In this document: one piece after another, positions 13,572 through 63,996 of the stretch | Numbering within the stretch: position 1 is the first letter of the stretch | Layout: every line of letters begins with the position of its first letter | Source of the DNA: Escallonia rubra | Lineage: Eukaryota > Streptophyta > Magnoliopsida > Escalloniales > Escalloniaceae | NCBI GenBank assembly: GCA_033065855.1 | Contig: JAVXUO010001270.1 | Location: forward strand, 186,001-250,000 | Direction of reading: 5' to 3' | DNA length: 64,000 nt | Notes under the pieces: model-generated | Told to the model about the DNA's origin: nothing | Seen by the model: the letters and a program-made list of their open reading frames with translations, nothing else | The model's database searches: none | Made by a program: the position numbers and the translations under genes

Positions 13572-13574
<3 letters not shown>

Positions 13575-13614
13575 AGCCGATCCCTGTCTACCGGTGGGAA
13601 AACGTTATTTCTCC

Positions 13615-13735
13615 ACCGAACCGCTGCAAAGAGCAGCGATTGAAGAAAAGAGGAAAAAACCCAACCGCAACAAAGTGTTGCGGTTGGCATCATTTGCTCC
13701 AAAAAGCGAACCGCAACACTTAGTTGCGGTTGAAG
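13615..13735. repeat. Subterminal palindromes AACCGCAAC-N-GTTGCGGTT (left arm A)
   Basis: Successive short hairpins: CCGCTGCAAAGAGCAGCG near 13,621, then AACCGCAACAAAGTGTTGCGGTT near 13,663-13,688 and AACCGCAACACTTAGTTGCGGTT near 13,709-13,731. The mirror copies lie at 19,248-19,365. The same palindrome recurs throughout the arms of MULE B. Candidate protein-binding or hairpin sites; function inferred only. Confidence 0.85.
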
Positions 13736-15299: not shown

Positions 15300-15384
15300 G
15301 GGTCAATGTTTCAGTTGTTTAAATTGAACTTTTATAATGTTTAAATTTGTGGAATCTTTAATTTGTGATTAGGTTTATGGAATC

Positions 15385-17917: not shown

Positions 17918-18119
17918 ATCTCTAAGAACAAAATATAATCGTAAACCAACTTAGCGTCCATAATATTAACATTCCAAAACTATAACTGGATATTTAACCT
18001 AGCTTACCAACGCATTAGCAATAGTCATTATCTCATTATTTCAATGTATTCACACCATTCCTCACTTCCCACCACTCCGAACGCTTAATTACGCCAGTTC
18101 CCTAAAATTTAGAGCCAAC

Positions 18120-34465: not shown

Positions 34466-37400
34466 ATGGAAGCCGAAGCTTCAACGTAAGTAAAAGCTGG
34501 ACCTAAACACCAAACTTTTGACTTAGAAATTTCGTAAGGCCGGTAGTCCTCAGTCATACCTACGTACTGTACGTGACAAACCATATAATGTTTATGCAGG
34601 TTTGAGACCTGTGAGATGCTGGCCACGTTTCTGGCCTCGACGCCGCTGCTCTCGGACTCGTGGAAGCTCTGCAGCCACGCCAATGCCACCGCGCCGCAGG
34701 GGTTCGTCGCGAATCAGGTCGAAGACGTTTGTTACGTTGCATTTTCCGGTGTCCAGGCCGTTACCGGATGGTACCCCGGTTGCCGGAATTTGGTGCCGCT
34801 GGATACCTCCGACAATGGCCCTTTTTCGGCGTGGCGTCGGCAAGGCGAGGAAGAAGAGCCTGTCATGGTCCATGCTGGGTTCTTACATATGTTTCTGTCT
34901 ACTTTTCACACAGAAAGCTTCCAAACCCAGGTTAGTTCCTTCATTTGATGAAACTCTCTGTCTGATGCATCTGTTTTATGCATGAAGCTGATGACCATCT
35001 CATAACTTACAGATAAACTTGTAGATTACAACGGAGATTATAGGCTCTTGTCGATGTTAGCACTCTAATACCAACACTGATAAGTTTAATTAGACTTGGT
35101 CCCTCTTATTGTTCACTTCTCTATGAGTTTTAATTCATACTTTTTTTTTTCTTTCTTTCTCCCTAAAGCCTTCAATATGGTGTTGATTAAGATGACCGTT
35201 AAATGGCGACTCTTAGGCATCTAATAGTTAACAACTGACTAGACATGTTCAAAAGCAGCCTTTGGTGTATTATAAATAGTCTGCTTTCGTCCGGAAGAAT
35301 AAAAAAAAAATGCATTCTCTCTCACTCAAATAATGTCAGTGTAGTTTTTACTCCATAAATAGCCACTAAAGCTAGCCTGTACTATTTTGAAAGACAGATT
35401 TGCCGTTAGCTCGTTGTGGGTAATCGGTGACGATTATTGTCAGCGTGCAACTCTCGTCGTTATTTATCCTTTCTAGTGAGATATTTTCGTCAAAACGTAG
35501 AACCTACGTTCTAATGATGTGACAATGGTGACAATGAACACTAATTTTATTAGTGCGCGAGTCTGTACCAACAGATGAAATTGGAATGTAGTGGAAGTTG
35601 ATTTCCTAAATCCTAACTTTGTTAGTCACCTCTCTGTTAGGTGTTCATTATCTGCTACTTATGGCCGTGTGCTTTCATCCCATTGAACAGATACATTCTG
35701 TCAACTGTCAATTCTTCTCTTTATTGCCAAATTCAGCAGCATTCCTGTAGACAATGTCTCACAAACAATTTGAGAACTTTTCAATTTCAAATGGTTGCAT
35801 CCATCGATCTTCTGAATAATCATTAATTATCTGCTTTGGGAAGTAAACTTCAACATTTGTTCTTTTGATTACATTCTTGTTTCCTGGGTAATCTTTCTGT
35901 TCTTTTTCGAAGCTTTTAAGAAGCCAAATGGAACCCACATTTGATTTTCAATTGAAAGGCGAAGAACTTGGCGAGCCCATATGAAGTGATTACGTTTTAT
36001 AGGAATGCGTCCTTAATGTATTTAAATGTTTGGGGCTCTCTATGTTGTCGTCTTGAACAAGTTCCTTATTTAGTCTGTGACTTGCATGCAGATTTTTGAA
36101 ATAATGAAGAGAAGCAAATCAGTGGTATTCACTGGCCATTCAATCGGTGCACCCATTGCTTCTCTTTCAGCACTTTGGTTCCTCTCACACTTCCAATCCG
36201 TTTCCTCTTCCCCTTCGGTGATTTGTATAACCTTCGGCTCGCCTTTGCTCGGAAATAAATCTCTCTCCCGAGCCATCCTCCAAGAAAGATGGGGTGGAAA
36301 CTTTTGGCACGTTGTTGCGAGACACGATATCGTGCCTAGACTACTATTTGCACCCCTCACTCCTCACCTACATTTCCTCCTACAACTCTGGCACCTATGC
36401 ATGCCTTCTCCTTACTTGATTGAGCCCGCCGTGCAACTGCATGAACATCAAACATCCGAGCTGTTTCGATTTGTTTCGGCCTATGTTGAAGCATCAACAA
36501 GAGAAGAAGGGGCGGTAAGACCTTTATTCTGCCCGTTTGGAAACTTTATGTTTTGTAGCAATGAGGGAGCAGTTTGTGTGGACAATGAGATGGCTATAGT
36601 CAAGTTGCTACATGTGATGTTTGTCTCGGGTTCGGCTGGTTCTAGCATTACAGATCATTTCGACTATGGAGATTACTTTGGGAAAGTTTCGTTGCAATTT
36701 TTGTGTACGAGAGGCTTCATGGAAGGGGATCTACCCGAGTCAAGCTACGAAGCAGGGGTTGAATTGGCATTGCAGTCCTCAGAAATACCTAGTCATGTAA
36801 TTCACAAGGACTCCCTATTTCAGTTTCAGAAAAGCAAACCTATGGCTGCTACAAGGTTAAGAGTGGCTGTGAGTCAAAATGTAGTACATCATGCATTTAC
36901 AAAGTGGACCACCATAATGCATGATGTACAACATATCAATGCACAGTCCTTGATAACTCGTCTATAGCAGCCACAAATTTATATTTCAGTCCAACTTACC
37001 TGTTTGACATAGTTATTAACACTTAAAACTCTCGTTCCTTTTGCTTCTTACGGGAACAGGTTTCTGGACTTGTCAAAGATTGCTTAAAGATGGCAAAGCG
37101 GATGGGTCTTACGCCTAACCTTAACAGCGCTGGTGTTGCTATTGCTTTATCAAAGATCACACCACTGAGAGCTCAAATTGAGTGGTACAAAGCATCCTGC
37201 GATGACTCTGATGATCAAATGGGGTATTACGATTCTTTCAAGCAAAGAGGTGCCTCAAAAAGAGACTTCAAAGTAAACATGAACCGCATAAAGCTTGCCC
37301 AGTTTTGGGATGATCTAATTGGAATGTTGGAGACCAATCAGCTGTCCCATGACTTTCATAAGCGAGCGAAGTACGTAAATGCTTCCCAGTTCTATAAACT

Positions 37401-37857
37401 CCTTGTTGAGCCATTGGACATAGCGGAATATTACAGAAGTGGAATGCACCGGGTGAAAGGCCATTACATTAAGCATGGAAGGGACAAAAGGTACGAAATT
37501 TTTGATAAATGGTGGGGAGCTAAAAAGGTTTTTGATGAAGAAAGTAATAAGAGGAGCACGTTCGCAAGTCTTACGCAAGATTCATGTTTTTGGGCTAGGT
37601 TAGAGGAAGCAAGGGAGTGGCTAGAGATTGTAAGGACTGAGGGTGACACGAGAAAGCTCTGTATGCTGTGGGAGAATATTGACAAGTTTGAACAGTATGC
37701 AAGGAGAATGGTTGAGAAGAAAGAAGTGTCAATAGATGTCTTGGCAAGAAATTCAAGCTACAGTTTGTGGATAGAAGAATTGAAAGAATTGAGACTGCAT
37801 CTGCAGCAATTTCCTCCTTCATTTCCTAGGCTTCTGGACGGGAGAGTGGTTCCTTAG
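34466..37857 (+). CDS. PAD4: PAD4-like lipase-domain immune regulator
   Basis: EDS1-family protein that pairs with EDS1 to relay signals from intracellular immune receptors and promote salicylic-acid defence (family knowledge). Four exons with GT-AG introns and matching phases: 34,466-34,485, 34,600-34,930, 36,092-36,796, 37,060-37,857; 617 residues. The ATG at 34,466 begins MEAEAST, joined by the first intron to FETCEML. The lipase-like domain (to about residue 340) has GHSIG with Ser134, HDIVPR with Asp196, and DHFDYG with His306 as candidate triad. FGSPLLGNKSLS and NFMFCSNEGAVC are PAD4-like. The C-terminal EP domain follows: YYDSFKQRG, KRDFKVNMNRIKLAQFW, ASQFYKLLVEPLDIAEYY, FWARLEEAREWL. 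Intron 2 is 1,161 bp. The exon 3 donor at 36,797 is inferred; the frame stays open to 36,967 without it. No disruption seen. It is surrounded by transposons. EDS1 or SAG101 are less likely because the EP motifs fit PAD4 best. Confidence 0.93.
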
Positions 37858-47800: not shown

Positions 47801-48014
47801 ATCCGTTGATAGCGCTAGCAACTTAACCCAAGTTGCTAGCGCGATCTCGTCGTCCACGGGCGAGAATGGACGGCCAGATCGCGCACCACAACAGCAATTT
47901 TTTTCACCGTCCACTACATTATGTAGCGGATGGTAAAATATCGTCCGCTACATAATGTAGCGGACGGCCAAACAGCACTAGCAAGTTGCTAGTGCTATCA
48001 ACGGATCAGCTCCC
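47801..48014. mobile_element. MITE C: MULE-type MITE with paired palindromes
   Basis: Inverted ends: right end CTATCAACGGATCAGCTCCC (48,014), left ATCCGTTGATAGCGCTAGC (47,801; its outermost bases replaced by microsatellite). A sub-terminal palindrome CTAGCAACTT...AAGTTGCTAG sits at the left (47,815-47,840) and a shorter version at the right. A second palindrome occurs twice, CCACTACATTATGTAGCGG (47,911) and the 23-bp CCGCTACAT-A-ATGTAGCGG core (47,943-47,965). It is flanked on both sides by microsatellite. No coding capacity. Confidence 0.85.
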
Positions 48015-48023
48015 ATGTATATG

Positions 48024-48106
<83 letters not shown>
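48015..48106. repeat. (TA)n microsatellite between MITE C and MULE B
   Basis: About 90 bp, almost pure AT, separating two elements with related ends. Confidence 0.97.
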
Positions 48107-48110
<4 letters not shown>

Positions 48111-48870
48111 GATCCACCCACTAGTGGATGGTATCCACCGAACCGCAACACCTTGTTGCGGTTCGGTGGAATTGAATTTTTTTTTACACCCACCCACCCC
48201 CCACCCCACCTTTTTGTTTCTTTTTTTCGTGGCCCCCCACCCCCTTCCCTTTTTTCTTTCTTTTCTTTTTCTGTGGCCCCACCCCCTCCCCACACCGCAA
48301 CAAGAAGTTGCGGTTCTCCTTTTTTTCTTTTTTCCATGGGCCCCCACCTCCCTTTTCCCACCCTCACCCCCGGTTCCCGTTCTCTGTTTGTGGCCCCCCT
48401 TTTTTGTTTTGTTTTCTTTTGCGTGAATTTTTTTGCGTGTACTTTGTTGTTCCTTTTTTGTGTTCCTTTCTTGTTGTTTTATGTACTTTGTTGTTTCCTT
48501 GTGCGTGGCCTTTCACTTTTTTCTTTGTGTCCCCCACCCCCAACAACGCTTTGCCCCCTCCCAACGACACTTGGCTTCTCCCTACCTGCCCCCCACGAAT
48601 AAAGAAAGAGAGAAAGAAAACCCGTGAGTCTGTGATGGTCAGACTCACGGGTCTTCTTTCTTCTCTTTCCCTCGCTTTTCTCTCTTTATAATCCGTTCTC
48701 CCCAATTCTTTTTGGACAGAACCCTCTCTTTCACTCTACATCATCTTTCCCAACTCTTTTCTTCCATTTTCTTCATACTCCAAAGATTATCTGCATAATC
48801 TTCACGATAACATAAACAAAAATATTCTACGGTCAAAAATCGGTGGATAACCGCTAGAAGATTAAAACAA
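48107..48870 (+). promoter_or_regulatory. Left arm of MULE B: palindromes, TATA and 5' splice donor
   Basis: The palindrome GAACCGCAACACCTTGTTGC (first 20 bases; 48,139-48,163) recurs as ACCGCAACAAGAAGTTGCGGT at 48,293-48,313. C-rich tracts follow. A TATA-like CTTTATAATCC lies at 48,684-48,694, and a splice donor AACAA|GTAAGT at 48,871. Together with the acceptor TTTCAG at 50,759-50,764 this predicts a 1.9-kb intron in the 5' leader of the transposase. The same TATA and donor exist in reverse in the right arm (about 62,577-62,588 and 62,354-62,361). Confidence 0.55.
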
Positions 48871-49054
48871 GTAAGTATTTCGAATTTTCTTATAATTCAT
48901 TATTAATTTCAAATTATTCTTACCATAATTGTTCTTACCAGTAGATTGTTTAAATTGTGTTATGCTTACATTGTTCTTACCATAATCTCAAATTTGTGTT
49001 TTTTAGAGTTTAAAATTATGGATTGAACTAGCTTTTGGGTTAGGTGTGTTTAAT

Positions 49055-50242
49055 GTGAATACGAAACGTAACTGTCGCTAAAGGTGAAAACTTAATTAGA
49101 CAGTTTTTCACGAATTTATAAAAAATAGCTAGAGCTAGATTTTGCCAAAGTGCAAAACAGAGACCCTAGTTATTTTAAAATATCTGTATCAGGAAAAAAT
49201 TTCAGATTTTTCCAAAGACTGGAAAGGGGTTAACTGATACGCGCAACCTTGTAACTTTGCAGTGTAATTTAAAATATCAATCTAGCGCGATTTCGCGCGA
49301 AAATTTTATGAGAATCCTAGGATGTTGGGAAGTTCCATTTCCCAGAAATTCGGGCCATTCCGAAGCCGTTACCTATTTTTTTGGCCGAACGGGCTTTTAA
49401 GCGCTCGATCCGGACATCGGTTCGGGATTTTTTGGCAAAACTTTTGTAAAATACTTTTTAGATCAAGAATAAATTCAGGAAGCTTAAAATAGAATTTTAA
49501 ATCACTTTTGAGATTTTCTGAAGCCAGGGGTGTTTTGGTAATTTGCCACCCCGAAAGGGGTGTTTTGGTAATTTTTCCGGTAAAATTTTTCAAAGGACTT
49601 GTTAGTCCAGAATTGTAATTACAACACCTGAAATGTTGTTTTTTTAGTGTGCATACGAAACGTAACTGTTGCTAAAGGTGAAAACTTAATTAGACAGTTT
49701 TTCACGAATTTAAAAAAAATAGCTAGAGCTAGATTTTGCCAAAGTGCAAAACAGAGACCCTAGTTATTTTTAAAATATCTGTATCAGGGAAACATTTCAA
49801 ATTTTTCCAAAGACTGGAAAGGGGTTAACTGATACGTGCAACCTTGTAACTTTGCAGTGTAATTTAAAATATCAAGCTAGCGCGATTTCGCGCGAAACTT
49901 TTATGAAAACCCTAGGATGTTGGGGAGTTCCATTTCCCAGGAATTCGGGCCATTCCGAAGCCGTTACCTATTTTTTTGGCCAAACGGGCTTTTAAGCACT
50001 CGGTCTGGACACCGGTTCGGGATTTTTGGGCAAAACTTTTGTAAAATAATTTTTAGATCAAGAATAAATTCAGGAAGCTTAAAATAGCATTTTAAATCAC
50101 TTTTGAGATTTTCTGAAGCCAGGGGTGTTTTGGTAATTTGCCACCCCGAGAGGGGTGTTTTGGTAATTTTCCCGGCAAAGTTTTTCAAAGGACTTGGTAG
50201 TCCAGAAATGTAATTACAACACCTGAAATGTTGTTTTGAAGC
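49055..50242. repeat. 594-bp tandem duplication in the left arm of MULE B
   Basis: 49,055-49,648 and 49,649-50,242 are near-identical neighbours, both starting GTGMATACGAAACGTAACTG and ending at an AACACCTGAAATGTTGTTTT-type sequence; part of a third copy lies at 50,395-50,690. It would lie inside the predicted leader intron. Mirror copies occur at 57,600-58,030 and 61,640-62,170. Confidence 0.88.
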
Positions 50243-50771
50243 TGATTGCGGGGCGTTAGGGTGACAATGAATCACCGCGGGCATTTCGATAATTTGTCGC
50301 TTAGCGGGGGTATTTTGGTAATTTAACATTGTAAAATTGGAAGACTTACTTTTAGTTCGGGAAAGGGTGTAAGACACCCAGAAAGTTATTTTAAAGAATG
50401 AATTCAGGAAGCTTAAAATCCCGTTTCAAAGCACTTTTGAAATTTTCTGATAGAAGGGGGCATTTTGGTAATTCGCCACCCCGAAAGGGGTATTTTGGTA
50501 ATTTTACAGTGTTAAGTTTTTCAAAAGACTTCTTAGTCTAGAAATGTAAGCAAAGCACCTGAAAGGTTGTTTTGAGCTGATTTGGGGCGTTAGGGTGATA
50601 ATGAACCCCCGGGGGCATTTCGGTAATTTGCCGTTCATCGGGGGCTATTTTGGTAATTTTACATTACACAAATTTTCCGAATGACTTTTAAATAATTTTA
50701 TTCTTATTTTATTTAATTATATGACTTGTTGAGAATGATATAATTTTTATTTTTTAGATTTCAGTATAAAT

Positions 50772-52547
50772 ATGGATGCAACTGGAGGAAATATTTTTTG
50801 TGAAGATTCTGATCCACCTTACTTGGGTCAAGTTTTTCAAAGACTGGACGAAGTTGAAGCATACTATAGAGCATATTCGAAAACGATAGGTTTCGGTATT
50901 AGAATTAAGACGACTAGAAAACGGGCAAATACAGATCAAATTTGTGAAAGACTATTTGAGTGTCATAGAGGAACACCGCATGTACCCCCGGTTGTTCGGA
51001 TCAGTGACGAAGGGCCATCAAGACAAAGAAAATGGGACACATTTCCGGGTACCGGCTGCAAGGCCCATGTGTATGCAGTACAACGGAAAAAAGAAAACCA
51101 TTGGGTTGTGACGGGAGTGGATTTGAGCCATAATCATCAGTTGATGACCCCTAGTAAGATTGGTCAAATTCATCAGCACCGACAAATAGGTGCGGTACAC
51201 AGGGAACTGATATTTACAATGGCCGAGGCTAAAATTCCACCTTCAAAAATGATGGGATTTCTCTCAAGCCAGGCTGGGGGGATTGACAAGTTGAGTTTCA
51301 ACGCAGTTGACCTTCGAAATGAACTTCGTGTTCAGAGGAGAGAGTCTTTCGGTAAGAGTGATTCTCAAGCTACACTTGTTATCTTCAGGAGCCTTCAAAG
51401 TGAGAATTCGGGCTTTTTCTACAGTCTCCGACTGGATGACGAGAACCATATTAGTACTATATTTTGGGCGGATGCCCGTTCTAGAGCTGCTTACCAAAAT
51501 TTTGGGGATGTTGTGACGTTTGACACCACATACCGCACAAATAAGTACTCTATGCCTTTTGCTCCGTTCACTGGAGTGAACCACCACTATCAGTCAATCT
51601 TGTTTGGCTTTGCCCTGCTTAGGGATGAGACGGAGGAGTCATTTACGTGGTTATTTGAAACGTGGCTTAAAGCAATGTATCATATTCCTCCAAAGACCAT
51701 CATCACCGACCAAGATCTGGCAATGAAAAATGCAATCGCTAAGGTCCTGCCAGATACTCACCATGGCCTGTGCACATGGCACATAAGCAACAAATATCCC
51801 GAACGGCTTCACAATGTATATGCCTACCATCCGACATTCAAGACTGACTTTAATACATGTGTGAAGAAATCGTTGACGGTAGACGTGTTCAATGAGAGGT
51901 GGGCCAAGTTAATGGATGAATACTCTTTGTACAATCATGAATGGTTAAAATCGTTGTATGAGATCAAGACACAGTGGGTCGGTGCCTACACGAAGAAGTT
52001 TTTTGCAGCCGGAATGACTACGACCTCGAGAAGCGAAGGTATGAATTCATTCTTTGATGGGTACGTAGGCCATTCTTCTAGTATAACAGAGTTCGTACTA
52101 GAGATGCAGAAAGTCCTTGACAGGCAATTTTTCCTTGAGAGAGAAGCCGACGCGGCTACAGTTTACAGAGAAAGACAAATAGTAGTTTTTTCACCTTTGG
52201 AGGCTCATGCGGCTCAAGTCTATACCAAGGAAATGTTTAGAAAGTTTCAAGAGGAACTACTAAAGTCGAATCAATATAGCATGACAAAGTTGAACGAGTA
52301 TTCCACCATGGAGCTCAAGGTTTATGCTTTGACAAATGTGATGAATTTCGCCAATCCGTGCTCTTCGTCGGCTCTGAGGAACATAAGACATTTTACCGTA
52401 GCAGTTTGTATGGACACCGGGTTTGTTAATTGCAATTGTCAACTGTTTGAGCATAAATGTATACTCTGTCGACACGCTTTGAGGTATTTTAGCGCCAAGA
52501 ATGCTCGTGAAATCCCTCCAGAGTATATCTTGGATCGGTGGACGTAG
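50772..52547 (+). CDS. MULE transposase (FAR1/FHY3-like), ends at a premature UAG
   Basis: 591 codons from an ATG eight bases after a good splice acceptor. It contains a FAR1-type DNA-binding region (about 20-122: EVEAYYRAYSKTIGFGIR ... CKAHV ... DLSHNHQL), the MULE transposase domain (about 245-340: VVTFDTTYRTNKY, FGFALLRDETEESFTWLF, IITDQDLAMKNAI, HGLCTWHISNK) and a SWIM zinc motif (Cys554, Cys556, Cys566, His568). Likely DDE residues are Asp251, Asp313 and Glu422 (RSEGMNSFF). All catalytic and SWIM elements precede the UAG at 52,545-52,547. The related codon in MULE A is AAG, so this is a single A-to-T change. FAR1-family transcription factors derive from such transposases; the position inside inverted arms marks this copy as the element's own transposase. 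Confidence 0.92.
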   Translation: MDATGGNIFCEDSDPPYLGQVFQRLDEVEAYYRAYSKTIGFGIRIKTTRKRANTDQICERLFECHRGTPHVPPVVRISDEGPSRQRKWDTFPGTGCKAHVYAVQRKKENHWVVTGVDLSHNHQLMTPSKIGQIHQHRQIGAVHRELIFTMAEAKIPPSKMMGFLSSQAGGIDKLSFNAVDLRNELRVQRRESFGKSDSQATLVIFRSLQSENSGFFYSLRLDDENHISTIFWADARSRAAYQNFGDVVTFDTTYRTNKYSMPFAPFTGVNHHYQSILFGFALLRDETEESFTWLFETWLKAMYHIPPKTIITDQDLAMKNAIAKVLPDTHHGLCTWHISNKYPERLHNVYAYHPTFKTDFNTCVKKSLTVDVFNERWAKLMDEYSLYNHEWLKSLYEIKTQWVGAYTKKFFAAGMTTTSRSEGMNSFFDGYVGHSSSITEFVLEMQKVLDRQFFLEREADAATVYRERQIVVFSPLEAHAAQVYTKEMFRKFQEELLKSNQYSMTKLNEYSTMELKVYALTNVMNFANPCSSSALRNIRHFTVAVCMDTGFVNCNCQLFEHKCILCRHALRYFSAKNAREIPPEYILDRWT

Positions 52548-53063
52548 GATGCCAATAGAGTCCACGGTCACATTCCTTACGTGCCTAATGTTTCAGTTGA
52601 TTTCGAGCAATCTGAGACGCTGCGATATAATCACCTTTGTAACATCATGCACGGTTTATCATTGGATGCAGCGTCAACATATGATGGGTACAGGTATCAA
52701 GTTGAAGCAGCCGCACGGGATAAGGCTAAGCATGCACAGTTTAGGATGGCATTACCAGAAAGACATGACCCTCGGACGACTCCAGCCGGTAGATTCAATC
52801 GAGCTTCACAACCAGTCATTGATAGCACTAGCCTGCAACGTGAGGAGGACGACATTTTTGATCCAATTATTTCTCAAACAAAAGGGCGAAAACGAGCAAT
52901 ACGTACGAAGAATCATTTTGAAGAAGCAGCGGGTCAAAAAAATTTGCGAAGGTGTGCGTTGTGTAATAAGATGACTGATCATGACAAAAGAAATCATTAT
53001 AAAGTGTTAGGTATCGAACATAGCAGTATGGTCGAGGAGGACGATGATGAGGAAGAGTGTTAG
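52548..53063 (+). pseudogene. C-terminal extension of the MULE B transposase
   Basis: In frame with the preceding ORF across the UAG: VHGHIPYVPNVSVDF, CNIMHGLSLDAASTYDG, a linker, RRCALCNKMTDHDKRNHYKV (a CxxC ... HxxxxH-like knuckle) and an acidic tail EEDDDEEEC, stop at 53,061-53,063. Together the intact protein would be 763 residues. Read-through would restore it; the UAG context (ACG UAG GAU) is not a known leaky signal. Confidence 0.88.
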
Positions 53064-53149
53064 GGTTAATGTTTCAGTTGTATAAATTGAACTTTTATAA
53101 TGTTTATATTTGTGATTTGGTTTGTGAAATCTTTAATTTGTGATTTGGT

Positions 53150-54450
53150 TTGTGGATTACTGATATTTTTGGAAGGACCTATTCGGGCACACTTTAGCGC
53201 CCAATGCTTAGCTTGCGAGAAATGTTGTAATTTTGTTTTGTCACTTCTTTTTCGCTCGTTGCACCTCAGGCACGCTAGTTAGCTCATTTCTATGAATTTC
53301 GGTGAAAAATGAGACACGTAATTTTTTGAGGTTTCCCTATGAAGGGCCTATTCGGGCACACTTTAGCGCCCAATGCGTAGCTTGCGAGTAATGTTGTATT
53401 TTTTTGTCACTTTTTTTTTGCTTGTTGCACCTCAGGCACGCTAGTTAGCTCATTTCTATGAATTTTGGTGAAAAACGAGCCAAATTATTTTTTGAGGTTT
53501 CCCTATGAAGGACCTATTCGGGCACACTTTAGCGCCCAATGCTCAGTTTGCGAGAAATGTTGTAATTTTTTTTGTCAGTTTTTTTCTGCTCGTTGCACCT
53601 CATGCACGCTACTTAGCCCATTTCTATGAATTTCGACGAAAAACGAGACAAATTATTTTTTCGGGTTTTCCTACGAAGGGCCTATTCAGGCACACTTTAG
53701 CGCCCAATGCGTAGCTTGCGAGAAATGTTGTAATTTTTTTTTGTCACTTTTTTTTCGCTCGTTGCACCTCAGGCACGCTAGTTAGCTCATTTCTATGAAT
53801 TTCGGTGAAAAACGAGCCAAATTATTTTTTGAGGTTTCCCTATGAAGGGTCTATTCGGGGACACTTTAGTGCCCAATGCTTAGCTTTCGAGAAATGTTAT
53901 AATTGTTTTTGTCAGTTTTTTTCTGCTCGTTGCACCTCATGCACGCTACTTAGCCCATTTCTATGAATTTCGACAAAAAACGAGACAAATTATTTTTTCG
54001 GGTTTTCCTACGAAGGGCCTATTCGGGCACACTTTAGCGCCCAAGTCGTAGCTTGCGAGAAATGTTGTAATTTTTTTGTCACTTTTTTTTCGCTCGTTGC
54101 ATCTCAGGCACGCTAGTTAGCTCATTTCTATGAATTTCGGTGAAAAACGAGCCAAATTATTTTTTGAGATTTCCCTATGAAGGGCCTATTCGGGCACACT
54201 TTAGCGCCCAATGCGTAGCTTGCGAGAAATGTTGTAATTTTTTTTTGTCACTTTTTTTTCGCTCGTTGCACCTCAGGCACGCTAGTTAGCTCATTTCTAT
54301 GAATTTCGGTGAAAAATGAGACACGTAATTTTTTCGAATGCGTCCTATAAAAGGTCTATTCGCGCACACTTTAGCGCCAAATTCATAGCTTGCGGAAAAT
54401 TATGTACATTTCTTTTTTGTGCCGTGCTCTTTGCTCATTGCACCTTAGCC
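53150..54450. repeat. ~168-bp tandem repeat array (MULE B), eight copies
   Basis: The landmark TTGCACCTCAGGCACGCTAGTTAGC or variant recurs near 53,258, 53,425, 53,597, 53,766, 53,936, 54,100, 54,270 and, diverged, 54,436. Copies 3 and 5 share the variant CTCATGCACGCTACTTAGCCC, so pairs of units (~340 bp) have been duplicated together. Each unit has GGGCACACTTTAGCGCCCAATG and TTCTATGAATTTCG. It fills the gap between the 3' ends of two convergent genes. Confidence 0.95.
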
Positions 54451-54453
54451 ACG

Positions 54454-57229
54454 TTAGTTAGGATAATGGTAATGAAGGCGTCTAGCTTCATTCTTTTTCA
54501 GCTCCCAGGCTATCCTATACCTAAACGTCAAGGCATCCTCCCTAGTCCACGACGTATATTTGAGCACCTCCGAGCGAGCAATGTAGTCCATGTACTTGAG
54601 GACGTAAATCCCGCAATCATGACTGTTATATTGCTTTGGTCGGTCCTTTATCATCACGACCGTCCAAGGCTCCCCCGATGGCCGTTCGCACGCTAGCGAG
54701 AGGACAATAGTCTGCATCCAACAATAAAAAAGGTCATCAAGCCTATGTAACAAGAAGAATATACTATGAGCCAAGGTCAAAAAATAAATACTAACCACTA
54801 AAGTGATGTACTCGCTGTACATCTGTTCCAGCAGCTGTCCAGGATCGTCCTCCCTTAGGCTATCGTATATGTGAACCGTTCTGTTCGCTGGATGGAGAAC
54901 TAATAGGAACCAGTGGTTTGCATGATGATAAGGTATCATGATAAGGTTCGCAAGAGCAGCCTGACATTGATAGTTTGCGTTCAACATGCCTAACACGTTT
55001 CCAGCTGGTTTCCACTTACCCCTGCCTGCCCCTCGCCTCTACCATTCTGTGAATTTCCTCACCGTTAATTCCACAAAATAAGTGGGATACATGTTAAGCT
55101 TCAAATATTCAGAACGGTTAAACTGTAGCTCTCTAATCCGGAGCAGATCTATATAAGCATTCATGATAAAATTTGAAAGATCTGTCTCCGGCGCCAACGT
55201 TCTCATATCCTCATGACCTAGGAATGTCGCAAGAGGAAAGTCTATTGAATCGACAGACTCATGCCCGAAGTAGTGCCGGTCGATCCAACCCCGCTTGTCC
55301 GGCCTCAATGGCTTCGTCGCTTGTCCTTTGTCCGACCGGATGCTTGGGCACGAGGCCTGGATTCCTACTTGGGTCACCTGACTCTGGCGCTGAGAGTCGT
55401 ACGCGTCAGGAGGCAAGTGACTATACGGCTCCCAGAATTCATAGCTCTGCGGCAAAGACGCGTCAGAAGGCAAGCGACTAGACGGCTTTCCCGCCTGACT
55501 CTGGGGCTGAGAGTTGTACGCGTCAGGCGCTGAGCGACTAGACGGCTCCCCTTGGTAACCCCGGTACGCAACACTGAAGTTGTGAAGATCAGTCTTGTAC
55601 CTCTCATGGACCTCTTGAGACTGACAGGAGCCTGCGCGACATACCAGTCAAACGACTCCAGCTGCTTGAACACCTCAGTGCCCTGGTCAACCTAAAAAAT
55701 ATGCATAGAAAAATCACCGTCATCATTTCAGGCATTGTCGATAAGCTGTGCAAATAAATATTGAAACAACACTAGGGTGACTTACAATGTTCAATGCCCA
55801 GAACTGGTCATAGAAATCACGTGGCGCATACGATGTCTTCGTCGGCTGGGAAGGGCGATTCACCCTCGTGCGCGTCACCTTGAGAAACCATTGCAGGTAC
55901 TCATCAAGACTGGTGCCGTCGTGCTTGAGCGATACAAGGCTACCATACGTTTCTTGCCAAGTATTCCACTGTTCCACCTCGTCGCTCAATAAATTCAAGG
56001 CATCAGGCACCTCAAATTTCGGCCCTCCAACACTCCTGTATGGCCGCATGTCTACAGGGGGTTTTGGTATCCCTTGTAGACAGCCAGCTTGCTTCATAGC
56101 TCGATCAGGCATCTGAAACTCACATACTTCGAAGTGAATAAGCGGCACCCGAACCAAACCTGCCAGCACGTACGATACCGGAAGTTGCCAACACCACTCA
56201 TCTAACCGATGCATTACCTTGCCATATGGCTGCCACGTCACCTGGGGTGCATCCAACATATCTAGTTCCCCCCGATAGAACTGTAGATGGTTGTGAGGGT
56301 TTACCCGTCTCTTCCGGTTGGTCTCCGGCCCCCAAGCCCACACCCTAGGCCACATCTCATCGAAATATTCCCGCGGTTGTGGACGTCCCGTGGGTAGCCT
56401 CTCGTACGACCAAACCTGTGAATGCAAACATTATATGGAATTAATAATTAATCACGAATATTTTGACACGTCAAAACAAGAATATAAATACTCATACATG
56501 TAATAGAGTCAGGCAGGCGGCAATAGACTTGGCATCCAATCTCGTAACCTTATGCAGTGCTCGATATAGGTACGCAAGAACAGCTGAACCCCACGAATAC
56601 GAGTATACCTCCTCAAGATCCTCCAAGAACACCATATACTTCGGATGCACCGTGTTTTTCGAATGCGTCGGAAGTAATATGGCTCCAATAATATACAGAA
56701 GGAATGCCTTTGTATACGTCACGAAATCATGAGGAGTTTATTCATCCGTTAGCACGCCGTACTGCTCTCTCAGCCATTTAAGTTTTATGCCATTAGACGT
56801 AAGAGCTTCCCTCGGGATTCCCGGGAAATACTGCCCAGCCATCTTCGCTATGGATGCAGACGTTTTGCTCGAAATAATGGGTTTGCCGTGACATGGGATT
56901 CCAAGTATAAATTCGATGTCCTCTAATGTAATAGTCATTTCACCAAACCAGAAGTGAAATGAGTTCGTCTCGCCCCTCCATCGTTCAACTAGAGCGGATA
57001 TAAGGCAATCGTCATGCCGAGACCAAATCCCGCAATCGGCGAACATGGCCATGTTTTGACGGTGTAGTAGTTGTATTTGTTCCTCGTTCAGTACCCACTC
57101 TTCGAGGTGACTTGTGCTTTGAATTGTTTCCAAAACACCCCTATCGACACCGTCAAATACGTACCTCGCGACGTGGTCATCGTCATCGTATAGGATTGAT
57201 GTATCATGAGGTCCGGGGTTGAAATACAT
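54454..57229 (-). pseudogene. PMD-Ulp1 (C48 protease) fusion gene of MULE B
   Basis: From the ATG at 57,229, exon 1 (to 56,498) is a plant mobile domain (CGIWSRHDDCLISALVERWR, TNSFHFWFGEMTITLEDI, ILGIPCHGKPI). After an 82-bp intron (56,497-56,416), exon 2 (VWSYERLPTGRPQPREYF ... WQLPVSYVLAGLVRVPLI ... SLDEYLQWFLKVTRTR) ends at a GTAAGT donor near 55,785. An exon from about 55,690 begins VDQGTEVFKQLESFDWYV. Then comes a repeated linker (PSSRLPSDAS, PYSHLPPDAYDSQRQSQ) and a Ulp1-type protease: FIMNAYIDLLRIRELQF, then the catalytic trio in HHANHWFLLVL (His), VHIYDSLRED (Asp) and QYNSHDCGIYVLKYMD (Cys); the end is at 54,454. Disruptions: Tyr-to-stop at 56,738-56,740, a frameshift near 55,620, stop TAG at 55,039-55,041. 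MULE A is intact at the first site. Confidence 0.88.
55365..55560 (-). repeat. 60-bp linker repeats in MULE B protease gene
   Basis: Two to three degenerate copies of the unit that is amplified at 16,660-16,932 in MULE A, encoding PSSRLPSDA / SQPQSQAGK-like segments, one unit shortened. Confidence 0.8.
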
Positions 57230-57273
57230 ATCTCGAAGAACAAAATATAATCGTAAACCAACTTAGCGTCCAT

Positions 57274-58040
57274 AATATTTACATTCCAAAAATATAACTG
57301 GATCTTAAACCTAGCTTACCAACGCGTTAGCAATAGTCATTATCTCATTATTTCAATGTATTAAAACAATTCCTCACTTCCCACCACTGCTTAATTACTC
57401 TACTACTTAAAATTTAGAGCCAACGTGGCAATTTACCAATATACCCCGATGGCCGCTACACCACCAACACCACAAAATTGCTTTAAAACCACTTTTTAAA
57501 TGTATTACGTCAACTATATACCAAATATTTCCTCCGGATATTTTAAGGGGGAAAGTTACCAAAACACTCCAAACTTATGCAAAATACCCTTATCGCCCCA
57601 ACAAACATCTCAGAACAACTGAAAAAAATAACAGAACTAAAAGTAAGTCGAAAAATTTTATAATGTTAAATTACCAAAATACCCGCACTGAGCGACAAAT
57701 TACCGAAATGCCCCCGGGGCATCATTATCACCCTAACGCCCCGCAATCAGCTTTAAAACAACATTTCAGGTGTTTTACTTACATTTCTGGACTAAGAAGT
57801 CCTTTGAAAAAACTTTATTAGGAAAATTACCAAAACACCCCTCTCGGGGTGGCAAATTATCAAAATGCCCCCTGGCTTCAGAAAATCTCAAAAATGCTTT
57901 AAAATTCTATTTTAAGCTTCCTGAATTCATTCTTGATCTAAAAAGTATTTTTCGGGATTTTTTGCCCAAAAATCCCGAACCGGTGTCCGGATCGAGCGAT
58001 TAAAAGCCCGTTCGGCCAAAAAAATAGGTAACGGCTTCGG
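57274..58040. repeat. Inner part of the right arm of MULE B
   Basis: Inverse of the left arm sequences near 49,370-50,690 (CAAAATACCC, GGGGTGGCAAATTA, AAGCTTCCTGAATTCATTCTTGATC, AAATCCCGAACCGGTGTCCGG). Small open frames are shadows of the arm. Confidence 0.8.
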
Positions 58041-58709
58041 AAGGGCCCGTGCGGGCCACGAAGAAAAAAGTGGAAGGCCACAGAGAACCGCAAACTCCTT
58101 GCGGTTCGGGGGTGGGGGGCCATGCACGAGAAAAAAAAAGGATACGCAAAAGAAAACAAGAAAACAAAAAAGGACACGCAAGATAAAACAAAGGGCTAAT
58201 TACACATGTGTCCCTGAGGTTTGGGGGTAATTACACGCGAGGACACAAAGTTTCAAAATGTAACACTTATGTCCATTGACAAACGGAACCCTAAAAATCC
58301 TAACGGTTTTAACAAAATGACTTTATTGCCCTTATGTTAGAAAGTTATTTTTTTAAATGCCATTGTCTCTATTTTTTGTTGACTGTTTACTCTTCCCCAC
58401 CCTGATTCTCTCTCTCAAACTCCCCCCCAACTGCCGCACCCCTTCCTCGCCCCATCTCCATACCTGCAGACCCGTGGGCGTTGGTTTTATTTTCAGAGGT
58501 GGCAGTGGTTTGTGTCTTGCGTCATGGATTAGTGTACTGGCGGCGTTGCGATGTTGCTGGCGTGGCTTATGCGTGGCGGTGGTTTTATTTCAGAGGTGGT
58601 GGTACGTTGGTGGTCTTGGCACAAACCCGCCGGCGTTGGTTTTATTTCAGAGGTGGCACCGGCAGGAGCAATTGCACTTTAGATTTTTGGGAAACTCGGC
58701 CTAATCCCA

Positions 58710-58950
58710 GCTGAAACAACAATCCCATGGTTCTAAACTGGGGTGATTCCCCCTGCCGGAACATGAAACTATTGGGCAGACCCTTTCACTTGTACTGGAG
58801 CTGGCACTGATGGGATTCCCAGAGCACAGGAGATTTCAAGACTGGGCAAAGCCAGGGTCCATGAGCAAGCACTTCTTGAGATTCGAGAAATTCTTGGGCG
58901 AGTATGGAGATGTTGGCAAGGGCTGTGCTGCTGCCATGAAACAGATTAAG
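58710..58950 (+). pseudogene. Captured LHCA3 (photosystem I antenna) fragment
   Basis: Translation in two frames gives [25 protein letters not shown], then after a +1 shift [20 protein letters not shown] and [21 protein letters not shown]. This order and wording match the middle part of plant LHCA3 (Lhca-type chlorophyll a/b-binding protein, with the ...[17 protein letters not shown]... segment). Stops and a frameshift show it is not expressed as protein. It sits entirely within the Pack-MULE. Confidence 0.78.
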
Positions 58951-58964
58951 AATTGGGGTTTTGA

Positions 58965-59185
58965 AACCCTAATTTGCAAATTAGGGTTTTGAAGCCCTAA
59001 TTGGGAGATTGATAAATTAAATATTGAAACCCTAATTTGTAAATTAGGGTTTTGAAACCCTAATGTTTAAATCAGATCTGGAGAAGGAGAAGAGAAACCC
59101 TAATTTGAAAATTAGGGTTTTGAAACCCTAATTTTAAGGTTTCAAAACCCTAATTTTTAAATCAGGGTTTCAAATCCTCCTAATT
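58965..59185. repeat. AAACCCTAATTTGCAAATTAGGGTTT palindromic repeats
   Basis: At least six AAACCCTAATTT half-sites and their inverses (AAATTAGGGTTTTGAA) arranged head-to-head. AAACCCTAA is the plant telo-box. Strong local hairpins are expected. Confidence 0.85.
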
Positions 59186-59463
59186 TTAGGATTTCAAAAG
59201 CTTAATTTGCAAATTAGTTGCAAATCCTAATTTTAAAAAAATAAGGTTTAATTTGAAAATTATATTGTACAAGGGCAGTATTGTCATTTTTAAAATACGT
59301 AATGATGAACATTATATTTTTTGGATGGAACCCTAACGGATGGACACGGGTGATACATTTGAAACATTTTTTGTCACGGAATGTTACATTTTGAAACTTT
59401 GTGTCCTTGACTGTAATTACCCCCTAACCTCAGGGACATAGGTGTAATTAGCCCTAAAACAAA

Positions 59464-59835
59464 AAAGGAACCGAGGGGGGTGGGGGGCATGCACGAGAAA
59501 AAGAAAAGGATACGCAAACGAAAACAAGAAAACAAGAAAACAAAAAAGGACACGTAAAAGAAAACAAAAAAGGAACGGGGGGGCCACGGGGGGTGGGGCC
59601 CACGAAGAAAAAAGTGGGAAGGACAGAGAACCACAACCCCTTGTTGCAGTTTGGGGGTGGGGGAGGAAAGGGGTGGGGGCCCACGGGAGTGGGTGTGGGG
59701 GTGGGGGCCACGAAGAAAAAGTAGTCACAGAGAACCGTAACTCCTTGTTGCGGTTCGGGGTGGGGGATGGGGCCCCACGGGAACCGGGGGTAAGGGGTGG
59801 GGGCCACGAAGAAAAAGTAAACAGAGAACCGCAAC
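59464..59835. repeat. Right arm of MULE B, amplified GC-rich/palindrome units
   Basis: Tandem units with GGGCCACGAAGAAAAAG..., CACAGAGAACCGYAACTCC and TTGTTGCGGTTCGGGGTGGGG (about 59,620 and 59,730), each containing one AACCGCAAC/GTTGCGGTT palindrome. Frames reading Pro/Phe-rich peptides here are artefacts. Confidence 0.85.
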
Positions 59836-60710
59836 TAGTGAATCCTTCTGGGTAAATTCTGCAACTAAGGTCCAGTTTGTTAAAACATGTTCTGTTCTAA
59901 AATAATTTTTTTGAGTTTCCCCTCCAATGGCTTACATGTCCTAACTTGCTTTCAGAGGTTGTAACTTTGGACCCCACCTTCACACCCCAACCACAGAAAA
60001 AGAGTCCTAACCTAAAATTGGTTGGCTTAACCTCTCAGCAACTTATTGCGTTTTTCGACCCCAACTCCCCAGCTGGGGTGATAAATATATGGGATGCCAC
60101 TTCCTTAACAATAATGCGTGATGCAAGAAACAAGTGAACGAGCGTGGCTGCAAGCTAGTCCAAGAATGTACGATCCATTTTCCTTGATACATAAAGCATG
60201 CAAGGACTAGTGTCAAAGACAGCCAGTAATATATGAGGTTACCAATGGAGAAACTAGATAAACTTTGGGAGATTGGTACAAGATTTGCACAAAGAATTAG
60301 AACACTAAAGATGGAGGAAGCTTTAGAAAGATAAAACAGATTAAGTATAACATAAGAAGGTATTAAGTTGAGATAAGTAGATGCTTTGGTGATGCCACCT
60401 AAGAATGGTTGACTAGCAACTTCAACAGGACTATGAACACTAAGACAATGCCTGATAGTCAACAAGAAGTATATTTAAAAAGCAAACTAGAGCTATAAGG
60501 AGATAATAAAAGTCGCCCCAGCAAGAAGGGGACTAGACTTACAAGTAACATCACCAAGCCCTTGGGACTGAGAAATGAGACTCGAATATTTGAGAGCCAG
60601 TTTGAATCCAAAAAAGATATAAGACTTGTTAAACGAAGTCTGACCATCATATAAAAACAAAAAGCACTGACTGCATTAAAACTTAATAGAGTTTGAATTT
60701 CACCAATCAT
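59836..60710. other. Foreign segment in the right arm, unassigned
   Basis: AT-rich, unlike the arm on either side. A plus-strand frame (KSPNLKLVGLTSQQLIAFFD, 59,999-60,060) and minus-strand frames around 60,450-60,660 look protein-like but I cannot name them; the minus-strand part may be a decayed copia fragment. Clear insertion ends were not found. Confidence 0.35.
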
Positions 60711-60945
60711 AATTACCGCAACCCCTTGTTGCGGTTCGGGGGTAGGGGAGGAAGGGGGGTGGGGGCCACGAAGAAAAAAGTAGTTACAGAGAACCGCAAC
60801 TCCTTGTTGCGGTTCGGGGTGGGGGGTGGGGGGCCCACGGGAACCGGGGGGTGGGGGGTGGGGGTGGGGCCACGTAAGAAAGAGAAAAGAAAAAAGGGCA
60901 GGGGTGGGGGCCCACGAAAAAAAGAAAAAAAAGGGAAGCATTGTT
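60711..60945. repeat. Right arm of MULE B, further palindrome units
   Basis: Two more units (GCAACCCCTTGTTGCGGTTCGG at 60,718 and GAACCGCAACTCCTTGTTGC at 60,792), same structure as 59,464-59,835. Confidence 0.85.
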
Positions 60946-61600
60946 GATTTCTATAGTAATCAAGCCGAGTCGTTTTCCTAGTGTAAGTGAAATTTCCCAC
61001 CAGCCCCCCTCAGGTTTTTTAAACGGCAGTACAGTACTTATTAAAATTTGCTTCACAAGAAAATAATGGTACGATCCTCATAATAATTTTTAAGCACTTA
61101 ATGAGAATACTTCTTTCATAACATTTAGCTGAAAGAATACTTATCAGTTTTCCTGCAAAAGTTTTTAAGATTCAAAGAAATTGAAGTTCCTTATGCTCTT
61201 GGGTATCTGGTTGATGTAACTTATCGAAAAACTCTGAGTTGATGTTACAAGAAATATCTTCTTCGCTTGTAAGTTGCGCGTGGGTTCTTGAATGCACAAT
61301 TCTTACTGTGCAAAGATATCGATCGATTGATATACTAGTGCCTTGAAACCTTTGGTCACTGACCAGGCAGGTAGACAGGTAAAACAATGAGTTTAGGTAG
61401 GGCAATATCTGCGGGCTAAAAAGGTTATTTTCACTACTTCACAGTGAAGGTTAACACTTAGTCGTGGAAAAATAGAGAACAAAGTGATTAATTGCAAATT
61501 TTCTTTTTGTACGCGTCATGCACTCAATTATTTGCTTTCAAATATTGGTTGGTCAAGAGTCTATTAGAACAGCCACCATCGTTGACTTAACATTGTAGAA
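60946..61600. other. Unassigned insertion-like segment
   Basis: Not related to the arm on either side; no gene recognised. Ends at a 27-bp tandem triplet (TTAACATTGTAGAATTAACA) at 61,590-61,660. Confidence 0.35.
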
Positions 61601-61639
61601 TTAACATTGGAAAAATTTAACATTGTAGAATTAACATTG

Positions 61640-63160
61640 GAAAAATTTAACAGTGTAGAATTAGCAAAATACCCCTCTCGGGGTGGCAAATTACCGAAAT
61701 GCCCCCTGACATCGAAAAATATCAAAAGTGCTTTGAAATGCTATTTTCAGCTTCCTGAATTCATTCTTGATCTAAAAAGTATTTTACAAAAGTTTCGCTC
61801 AAAAATCCCGAACCGGTGTCCGGATCGATTGCTTAAAAGCCCGTTCGGCGAAAAAAATAGCTAACGACATCGGAATAGCGCAAATTACGGGGAAACGGAA
61901 CTTCCCAACATCCTAGGGTTCTCATAAAAGTTTCGCGCGAAATCGCGCTAGTTTGATATTTTAAATTACACTGCAAAGTTACAAGGTTCCGCGTATCAGT
62001 TAACCCCTTTCCAGTCTTTGGAAAAATCTGAACTTTTTCCCTGATACAGATGTTCTAAAAATAACTAGGGTCTATTTTTTGTACTTTGGCAAAATCTAGC
62101 TCTAGCTATTTTTTATAAATTCGTGAAAACTGTCTAATTAAGTTTTCACCTTTAGCGACAATTACGTTTCGTATTCACATTAAACACACATAACCCAAAA
62201 TCTAGTTCAATCCATAATTTTAAACTCTAAAAAACACGAATTTGAGATTATGGTAAGAACAATGTAAGCATAACACAATTTAAACAATCTACTGGTAAGA
62301 ACAATTATGGTAAGAACAATTTGAAATTAACAATGAATTATAAAAAAATTCGAAATACTTACTTGCTTTAAACTTGATATATTTTAATCTTCTAGCGGTT
62401 ATCTACCGATTTTTGACCGTAGAATATTTTTGTTTATGTTATCGTGAAGATTATGCAGATAATCTTTGGAGTACGGAGAAGATGGAAGAAAGAGTTGAGA
62501 AAGATGGAAGAAAGAGTTGAGAAAGATGATGTAGAGTGAAAGAGAGGGTTCTGTCCAGAAAGAATTGGGAAGAACGGATTATAAAGAGAGAAAAGCGAGA
62601 GAAAGAGAAGAAGCAGACTCACGGTTCTTCTTTCTCTCTCTGTTGGGCAAGCAAGCAGGAGAATCCAAATATGTGCTGGGGGGCCAACTTTTGCGGGGAG
62701 AAGCCAAGTGTCGTTGGAAGAGGGGTTGTTGCTAGGAGGGGGCAAAGTGTTGTTGGGGTGTGGGCCAAAAAAATTGGAAGGCTGTGAAGAAACTCTGCAA
62801 CCACCCACACACAGGGAGAAAAGGACAAAAGAAGGACACGAAAAGAAATAAAAAAGAGACACGCAGGGGAGGGGGGCCAGGAAGAAAAAGAGGAAGGACA
62901 GAGAACCGCAACAGACTCACGGGTCACAAGAAACAAAAAAGAAGGACAAAAAAGGAAAAGAAAATGGGGAAAGTACAGGGAAAAGAAAATAAAAAAGGAA
63001 GAAAAATGGGAAAGGACAAGGAAAAGAAAATAAAAGAGGAAGGAAAAAAAGGACAAAAAGGACACAGAACCGTAACACGGTTCGAGGGTGGGGGCCACGC
63101 ACAGTGAACCGCAACTCCTTATGGGGGGTGGGGGGTGGGTTGGGCAGTAATAATGTGACC
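61640..63160. repeat. Outer part of the right arm of MULE B
   Basis: Inverse of 48,400-49,640: ACTGCAAAGTTACAAGGTTCC, CTAATTAAGTTTTCACCTTTAGCGAC, the splice-donor region (AAATACTTACTTGC at 62,352), TATTCTACGGTC inverse, and the TATA region (GGATTATAAAGAGAG at 62,577). From 62,780 on it is G/A-rich with low-complexity frames. It could act as promoter for the minus-strand PMD-Ulp1 gene; inference by symmetry with the left arm. Confidence 0.8.
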
Positions 63161-63924
63161 CTGGTGTGTTCAACTTAATTATTAAAGAGGATTAATTAAT
63201 TATTAAAGAGGATTAATTTGCGTCTTTAGCTCCATTGTATAGCTAGATACCTTGTGACCATTATGTCTAGATTTCCTTACTTCACGTCGGTATTGCCTTG
63301 TTCATTACTTTCACCTTGCCATGAAGCTGATGTTGTTCATTTTCTTTGGTACGTTAAAATACCATAAATTTTTAGGCATAATTAAAAGAAATGTCATTTT
63401 AGTCACTTTAATGCTAAACTTACACAAATAAACACACACACACAAAAGCAAAGTTAAACTCCAATTAAATAAAGACATAAAGTCAACGTATTTAACCACA
63501 CAGTTTACACTTTATAAGGCGACAGAGCACACTGCCTCGGGGCTATGGCTGCAACACCGCATTCTCCGCCTTTGCCCTCACCCATTTTATCGTCTCCCTC
63601 CTCCGGCCGATCCACGTCTAGTGTAAGACTCGTGTTTGATTCCTACATAGTTGAATTCTTTGAACCCTTTCTTAACAATAAGTACAATTTTTTGTTTTAG
63701 TTTAGAATGATGGGATTAGGAACTTATAATTTCAAATTTTAGGAATTAAAAATTTGGGGATTTTGATTTTCAGATTGATAATTTGGCAATTGGGAAAGTA
63801 ACGATGGGGGTGGGGGGAAAGGACATGCAGGGGGGACCGCAGGTGGGCCACGTGGCAAGCAGGGAAGGGGGACCGCCTGCCACATGGCAGGCAGGAAGGG
63901 GTGGGTGGGTGGGTGAAAAAAAAA
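63161..63924. other. AT-rich segment between arm parts, unassigned
   Basis: No gene. Short duplication ATTAAAGAGGATTAATT at 63,180-63,213. Probably an insertion or a diverged part of the arm. Confidence 0.3.
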
Positions 63925-63996
63925 TAATGATACAAACCGCAACTCCTAGTTGCGGTCCAGTGGATAATATCCACCGGTAGACCCTGATCGGCCCCC
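63925..63996. repeat. Terminal right end of MULE B
   Basis: Contains ACCGCAACTCCTAGTTGCGGT, CCAGTGGATAATATCCACCGG and TAGACCCTGATCGG followed by CCCCC, mirroring the left end and MULE A. ATAT follows to the window end. Confidence 0.88.

Follow-up and report, generated by a model that had tools for sequence, protein, structure and literature searches.

The 64,000-nucleotide stretch of Escallonia rubra DNA analysed here (GCA_033065855.1, contig JAVXUO010001270.1, positions 186,001 to 250,000; hereafter the window, whose own numbering is used throughout) is confirmed to carry, at 48107-63996, a Mutator-like element (MULE), with long inverted arms, a FAR1/MULE-type transposase gene on the plus strand and a convergent four-exon gene on the minus strand. 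This second gene joins a plant mobile domain (PMD), a repeat linker and an Ulp1-type protease of the C48 family. We call the element MULE B. It is a decayed member of a large group of MULEs with terminal inverted repeats (TIRs) and two convergent genes, and we put at about 0.5 the probability of a model in which the PMD-linker-Ulp1 protein would work in the manner of the VANC and KIU proteins. What the comparison of sequences supports directly is the element, the gene order, the four-exon frame, three diverged families, catalytic residues in the better copies, and a ratio of nonsynonymous to synonymous divergence (dN/dS, or omega) below 1; an anti-silencing role of the fusion protein is favoured at about one in two. 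The parts of the element that carry the argument are the following.

48107-50700, plus strand: the left of the two terminal inverted arms of MULE B; repeats lie within it, and its inner limit is approximate
50772-53063, plus strand: MULE transposase (FAR1, DDE/MULE and a weak SWIM part), with an in-frame stop at 52545-52547
56498-57229, minus strand: exon 1 of the fusion gene, with the start codon and the N-terminal half of the PMD, weakly DUF1985-like in relatives; stop at 56740-56738
55786-56415, minus strand: exon 2, the C-terminal half of the PMD, from Pfam and the alignment of copies
54796-55691, minus strand: exon 3, the repeat linker and, with His and Asp, the N-terminal half of C48; broken by a stop at 55041-55039 and by a frameshift of one base
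54454-54711, minus strand: exon 4, the C-terminal half of C48 (Gln and Cys motif) and the stop codon, from Pfam and the alignment of copies
61637-63996, minus strand: right terminal inverted arm of MULE B; its outer end adjoins TA repeats

The PMD-Protease Gene and Its Copies

The four exons are separated by introns of 82, 94 and 84 bases with GT-AG ends. Pfam recognizes the PMD in two pieces of the window copy (5e-22 and 6e-18) and C48 in another (5e-16), and gives no match to this copy's linker. The window copy cannot make the fusion protein because of the stop in exon 1 and the stop and one-base frameshift in exon 3. The genome (566 Mb in 3222 contigs; below, C-numbers are contigs and L-numbers are loci cut from it) was searched with the 2971-base fusion region, and the region was present in all 40 of the scored copies, the best 40 of 1659 candidates, with the 39 copies besides the window at 93-96% identity over the longest block. 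The match covers the full length in one block in 27 of the 40 (window included), is split in ten into two blocks that overlap, part of the linker being repeated, and is shorter in three. When the first 30 scored copies, the window copy included, were aligned as family 1, the start codon was found to be kept in every one of them, the splice donors of introns 1, 2 and 3 in 30, 28 and 29, and the acceptors in 28, 30 and 29. A single copy, L013, is open through all four exons; its spliced protein of 839 residues matches the PMD at 2.1e-69 over profile positions 15-346 of 347, a full-length match to PF10536, and C48 at 7.9e-21 over positions 7-210 of 217.

PMD, linker and C48 form one predicted gene, not two. 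The first-pass annotation of the window had read them in this way from the letters alone, with His, Asp and Cys motifs in order and a variable repeated linker, and L013 bears it out with 839 codons over four exons, in which Gln also takes its place among the ordered motifs. The variability of the linker is real as well: counted by a simple pattern, there are 0-3 repeats in the 30 family 1 copies, 5 in two copies of a second family, and 4 in MULE A, another element of the window to which we return below. PMD, C48 and MULE, the domains for which that annotation proposed a search, were all matched in Pfam. It had also considered that intact relatives might always carry the PMD and Ulp1 as separate genes; this is not so, as L013 and the two further families described below keep the order and the intron positions.

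Among solved sequences, the protease half is nearest to SENP2 (4e-10) and then to SENP1. The positions of His, Asp, Gln and Cys, which we take to be the catalytic residues, align with those of SENP2 in 1tgz; they are kept in all three family 2 copies, and the Gln/Cys motif also in L044 of family 3.

The number and order of the copies were further assessed with 30-base tags. Allowing up to three mismatches, the genome holds 712 matches to the C48 tag of exon 4 and 244 to the PMD tag of exon 1, and none to the same tags read backwards. On contigs C1-C1086, the range in which the list of exact C48 tags is complete, 26 of the 32 exact PMD tags are followed by C48 on the same strand at a distance of 1-3 kb, identified in 21 cases by its tag and in five through the Pfam list; none has C48 on the opposite strand and none has it upstream. 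For the remaining six no C48 is listed, and one of these stands at the end of a contig (C1019:906). Copy number, with the reversed tags absent from the genome, and fixed order rule out a chance adjacency of PMD and C48. A similar order is seen at the 145 genome places matched by DUF1985, not each of them verified as a member of the PMD-C48 family: at 26 (20 of 64 on contigs up to C1086) C48 is listed on the same strand, 1.0-3.6 kb further downstream, with no listed C48 on the opposite strand or upstream.

Diverged Families and Selection

Relatives were compared by tblastn of the four protein pieces against 13 loci chosen from the PMD search. Family 2 (L005, L041 and L042) has all four pieces in the same order, is open in the parts covered, and has all three introns in common with family 1, with intron 2 joining the frames in phase 0 in both. 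Family 3, found on C1974 (L006 and L044, the same locus) and C1171 (L040), has the PMD plus C48 with a linker unlike that of family 1, the C48 match of L040 spanning 16-108 only. Identity is about 53 and 42% in the two PMD halves and about 26% in C48. The codons at which introns lie are the same as in families 1 and 2 for intron 1 (seen in L040) and for intron 2 (seen in both loci), with GT and AG at the latter. The C48 frame of family 3 breaks near the third intron, and L044 has lost intron 1.

PMDs also occur without the protease. L007 has a PMD beside a convergent MULE transposase and no C48, and L001-L004, L008 and L043 have a PMD without C48 in the DNA examined. In a PMD tree of 13 sequences, all from this genome and with no outside references, families 1, 2 and 3 group together, with L007 inside family 3, and the other six without C48 stand apart. 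L001-L004 are four PMD genes in a row (C922:1278226-1296817), each consisting of one uninterrupted frame (643-689 codons), and are likely host genes. There are also repeated PMD families (C240, C1933 and others), whose open frames are 596 and 685 codons long; L043, the single copy of these inspected, has no C48 in the 4.2 kb covered.

Within family 1 the codon-position statistics are weak, with singletons showing little third-position excess, and for this reason the comparison of family 1 with family 2 was used. Between L013 and family 2, the PMD has a dN of 0.070 and a dS of 0.159, an omega of 0.44 (bootstrap 0.30-0.65), with none of up to 300 resamples at or above 1. The omega of C48 is 0.56 (0.32-0.94), with 1.3% of the resamples at or above 1, and within family 2 the values are 0.53 for exon 2 and 0.27 for exon 4. 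Taken with the figure for the linker, given below, these values therefore point to a constrained PMD, a less constrained C48 and a linker under hardly any constraint; all of them are drawn towards 1 by decay after insertion. For the transposase, the comparison of MULE B with L007 gave no usable dS.

The Transposase and Its Convergent Partner

The plus-strand frame at 50739-52547 matches MULE at 4e-33 and FAR1 at 2e-14, while SWIM, at 0.019, is below the Pfam cut-off in the window copy and above it in the relative L007. Beyond the stop at 52545-52547 the transposase continues in frame, and MULE A and L058 read through without that stop. We presume the transposase to be Jittery-like. The FAR1, DDE and SWIM parts given in the first-pass annotation, the last of them weak in this copy, are supported, as is the convergent arrangement between long inverted arms.

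The convergent arrangement is not particular to the window. In the genome search with the transposase, the best 40 of 2059 candidates were scored, the 39 besides the window copy being 93-98% identical. The fusion gene or C48 is listed within 2.5 kb in 15 of the 40, every one of them convergent; longer lists place C48 within 3 kb in 19, again all convergent, and add three further copies with a convergent PMD/DUF1985 place within 7 kb. Both listings pooled give 23 copies with a convergent partner, three of them by the PMD/DUF1985 place only. Four transposase copies were then picked from the other 17, and all four carry a convergent linker-C48 gene. The total is at least 27 of 40 (24 by C48 or fusion gene, three by the PMD/DUF1985 place), a lower bound with the other 13 scored copies outside the inspection. 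Among the matches listed for the 40 copies, no fusion gene or C48 lies beside the transposase on the same strand. The Ulp1 gene opposite the transposase, a trait of Kaonashi-type elements, is present here in these same 27 copies.

Arms, Ends and Other Features of the Window

In MULE B, 61637-62618 pairs with 48651-49594 at 89.5%, and the outermost stretches, 48077-48202 and 63899-64024, pair at 77% with the TA repeat counted in. Long terminal inverted repeats, a feature of MULEs, are therefore present in MULE B, and both ends are also found around L057 (C1063:65000-73100), an element in which the fusion gene is represented by its last part, C48, and runs convergent with the transposase. On C1019, arm ends flank the fusion gene on both sides. 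The 591 bases of the left outer arm have matches in the genome, of which the best 40 of 776 candidates were scored; of these 40, once grouped, 16 have on their inner side, no further than 14 kb away, a fusion gene, C48 or transposase from the lists, and for 24 the lists show none.

The left end of MULE B adjoins a (TA)n tract at 48018-48106 and the right end adjoins TA repeats just beyond 63996. Because the ends lie in TA repeats, a target site duplication of the 8-11 bp type is indistinguishable from the repeat and cannot be read. Arm ends stand directly against TA repeats at 13 of the 16 ends examined (48107, 63996, 13572, 19411 and those of loci L045-L057), as against 0.36% of background positions in the window (21/5783), and the elements seem to insert into TA microsatellites. 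At 47960-48020, to the left of the same TA tract, there is by eye an apparent second, mirror-image arm end, as if two elements had met.

Further features of the window are listed below.

13572-19411 (approximate), plus strand: MULE A, on the plan of MULE B and internally deleted; C-terminal part of the transposase on plus, remnants of PMD, linker and C48 on minus
53172-54461, no strand assigned: 168-bp tandem array (7.7 units at 87%) occupying the gap that separates the 3' ends of the two convergent genes
58789-58911, plus strand: fragment like the chlorophyll a/b-binding protein LHCA3 (phmmer against PDB chains, E 2.3e-12)
36074-37857, plus strand: EDS1-family gene in two nearby frames (Lipase_3 2e-17, EDS1_EP 5e-70)

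MULE A had been annotated as having the same plan as MULE B, which holds for the shared layout but not for its completeness: the N-terminal part of the transposase, much of the C-terminal half of the PMD and the first half of C48 are gone. The 168-bp repeats also occur beside other copies of the element, in varying unit number. The LHCA3-like fragment inside MULE B was presumably captured.

Two sets of sequence features bear on a possible VANC-like function. The first is a palindrome, CCGCAAC-N5-GTTGCGG, found nine times in the window, always within MULE A or MULE B, and in none of 100 shuffles. Its half-motif AACCGCAAC occurs 11 times in B, 7 times in A and 8 times in L057, against once in the 42 kb of the window outside the elements and a chance expectation of 0.36 per 64 kb; the counts in A, B and L057 are not independent, as the three are relatives and the query that retrieved the arm loci itself contains the motif. 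Palindrome and half-motif cluster at 13663-13731, 19251-19317, 48141-48315, 59747-60812 and 62904-63955, mostly towards the element ends, and AACCGCAAC is absent from the L013 gene region. The second is the weak match of DUF1985 to the N-terminal half of the PMD, a likeness that the first-pass annotation had not noted, with E-values of 6e-6 (family 1) and 6e-7 (family 2), and with none in the host-like PMD of L001 by Pfam. At 16 of the 145 DUF1985 places in the genome the score exceeds the Pfam cut-off, but at 12 of the 16 it does so only when neighbours in the frame are included. DUF287 is not among the matches listed for the fusion proteins.

What the Fusion Protein May Do

The published work on VANDAL elements offers a model. 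VANC proteins bind short motifs arrayed in tandem in the non-coding DNA of their own elements, where they cause methylation to be lost; DUF1985 and DUF287 are the domains indicated for these proteins, and their variable regions often contain tandem peptides (PMC5735166). KIU genes are VANC-type genes with an Ulp1 domain and act on KIU-bearing copies (review PMC13317346). We suggest that the PMD-Ulp1 protein may act like VANC and KIU of the Arabidopsis VANDAL elements, as an anti-silencing factor encoded by the element. The PMD half would bring the protein to the element's own non-coding DNA, where the candidate target sites are either the 168-bp array or the AACCGCAAC/GTTGCGGTT clusters of the ends. 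Silencing proteins or the transposase would be the substrates of the C48 half, which would free them of the small ubiquitin-like modifier (SUMO) or of a modifier that resembles it. This model is preferred because of the weak DUF1985 match, the linker of repeat peptides and the element-specific motifs.

A number of observations weigh against it. The great majority of the aligned copies (29 of 30) have stops, frameshifts or lost splice sites, and the catalytic Cys is lost in L058. Compared with its counterpart in family 2, the linker of L013 evolves almost neutrally, with an omega of 0.82 (0.41-1.94), and within family 2 exon 3 gives 1.13 for L005 against L041. If intron 2 is retained, the protein ends about 20 codons past the PMD. 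The C48 tags far exceed the PMD tags (712 vs 244), and an exact PMD tag lies upstream of just 21 of 100 listed exact C48 tags; the excess may come from divergence, the PMD tag being fitted to family 1, but it may also mean that many copies are without the PMD, as is L057 despite both of its arms. The likeness to VANC has its own weaknesses: DUF1985 scores 26.7 and 30.0 bits in two proteins, below the Pfam cut-off of 35.1, and is outscored on this PMD by DUF7745; the family 3 PMDs have no DUF1985 match in Pfam, and weak matches also occur in PMDs without C48 (L008 at 9e-4, L043 at 9e-3). Finally, the short flanks covered for families 2 and 3 contain no AACCGCAAC, and the palindromic form of the motif would suit a transposase-binding site at least as well.

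This last point belongs to the strongest alternative, that the protein aids transposition itself, for instance by deSUMOylating the transposase or repair proteins at the arms, with no relation to silencing. The gene does travel with the transposase, its protease half is nearest to SENP2 and SENP1 among solved sequences, and the palindromes occupy the ends, the expected place for transposase binding. We nonetheless consider it unlikely, given that the VANDAL gene taken as comparable acts on methylation (PMC5735166) and that the Arabidopsis relatives of the PMD function in silencing (PMC5418596).

It is more improbable still that host PMD and Ulp1 sequences were captured and copied along as a passenger with no function of their own. 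MULEs do pick up pieces of genes, and MULE B with its LHCA3-like fragment is an example; the broken state of nearly all aligned copies, the nearly neutral linker and the missing PMD of L057 would all fit a passenger. What a passenger would not lead one to expect is the persistence of the PMD-linker-C48 order and of intron positions through three families in which the PMDs are about half different and C48 is about 26% identical, the omega below 1 of both domains between families 1 and 2, and the catalytic motifs kept in L013, the family 2 copies and L044. Very unlikely, lastly, is a pair of separate genes lying head to tail and fused only by the gene model: the PMD frame does end soon after the domain when intron 2 is left unspliced, yet the intron is canonical (donor GT in 28 and acceptor AG in 30 of 30) and in phase 0, GT and AG recur there in family 3, and 26 of the 32 exact PMD tags are followed by C48, always on one strand and in one order.

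Returning to the anti-silencing model, it can be extended, though tentatively and as a possibility we doubt more than we credit, to a view in which the PMD and the VANC domain DUF1985 would belong to one superfamily of mobile elements, and the PMD-Ulp1 protein would be an anti-silencing factor that finds the end motifs and strips SUMO from the silencing machinery. If that were true, the host silencing proteins MAIN and MAIL would be the tamed opposite of a counter-silencing module borne by elements. The interest of the element lies in this direction: one element-borne protein unites the PMD, which host silencing proteins also contain, with a SUMO-type protease, and there is a possible link from the PMD to the VANC anti-silencing proteins. 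A correct model would give a handle on what PMDs do and on why Ulp1 domains recur in plant transposons.

Comparison with Known Systems

The components of MULE B have each been met before. Ulp1 domains in MULEs are known in both orientations, also in TIR and Jittery-like elements (PMC2528002); PMDs in MULEs are known too, and an anti-silencing role has been proposed for them (PMC5418596; PMC8616336); and PMD-protease fusions are raised as possible in one clause of PMC7156037. Our literature search, with most subscription journals outside its coverage, found no paper describing a MULE with a PMD-Ulp1 gene. The first-pass annotation had called the system little-described, which is right for the combination and not for its parts: the PMD-Ulp1 MULE appears to be a variant not found described, while Ulp1 in MULEs, PMDs in MULEs and the idea of anti-silencing by element PMDs are already in print in the sources cited.

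Among the closest known systems are the Kaonashi (KIU) VANDAL MULEs and the Ulp1 MULEs of melon, rice and grapevine, which likewise have Ulp1 in a second gene (PMC2528002, PMC13317346). As described in PMC2528002, the KI-MULEs carry the Ulp1 gene in reverse to the transposase, as is the case here; they are, however, non-TIR elements with a mudrA transposase, whereas MULE B has long arms, a FAR1-type transposase and a PMD before the protease. VANC resembles the fusion protein in its DUF1985, matched weakly here, in a variable stretch of tandem peptides and in the clustered non-coding motifs (PMC5735166). It differs in that the PMD model far outscores DUF1985 on our protein, that no DUF287 match is listed, and that its activity is putative here. 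The MULE PMD-C proteins of grasses and Amborella share with it a PMD inside a MULE and a proposed anti-silencing role (PMC5418596), and MAIL3 of Arabidopsis (cf. MAIN and MAIL1) shares the fusion of a PMD to an enzyme domain (PMC7156037). In these proteins, as far as the cited accounts go, the PMD is fused to a transposase or a phosphatase; in MULE B it is fused to a C48 protease, in a separate gene that runs towards the transposase.

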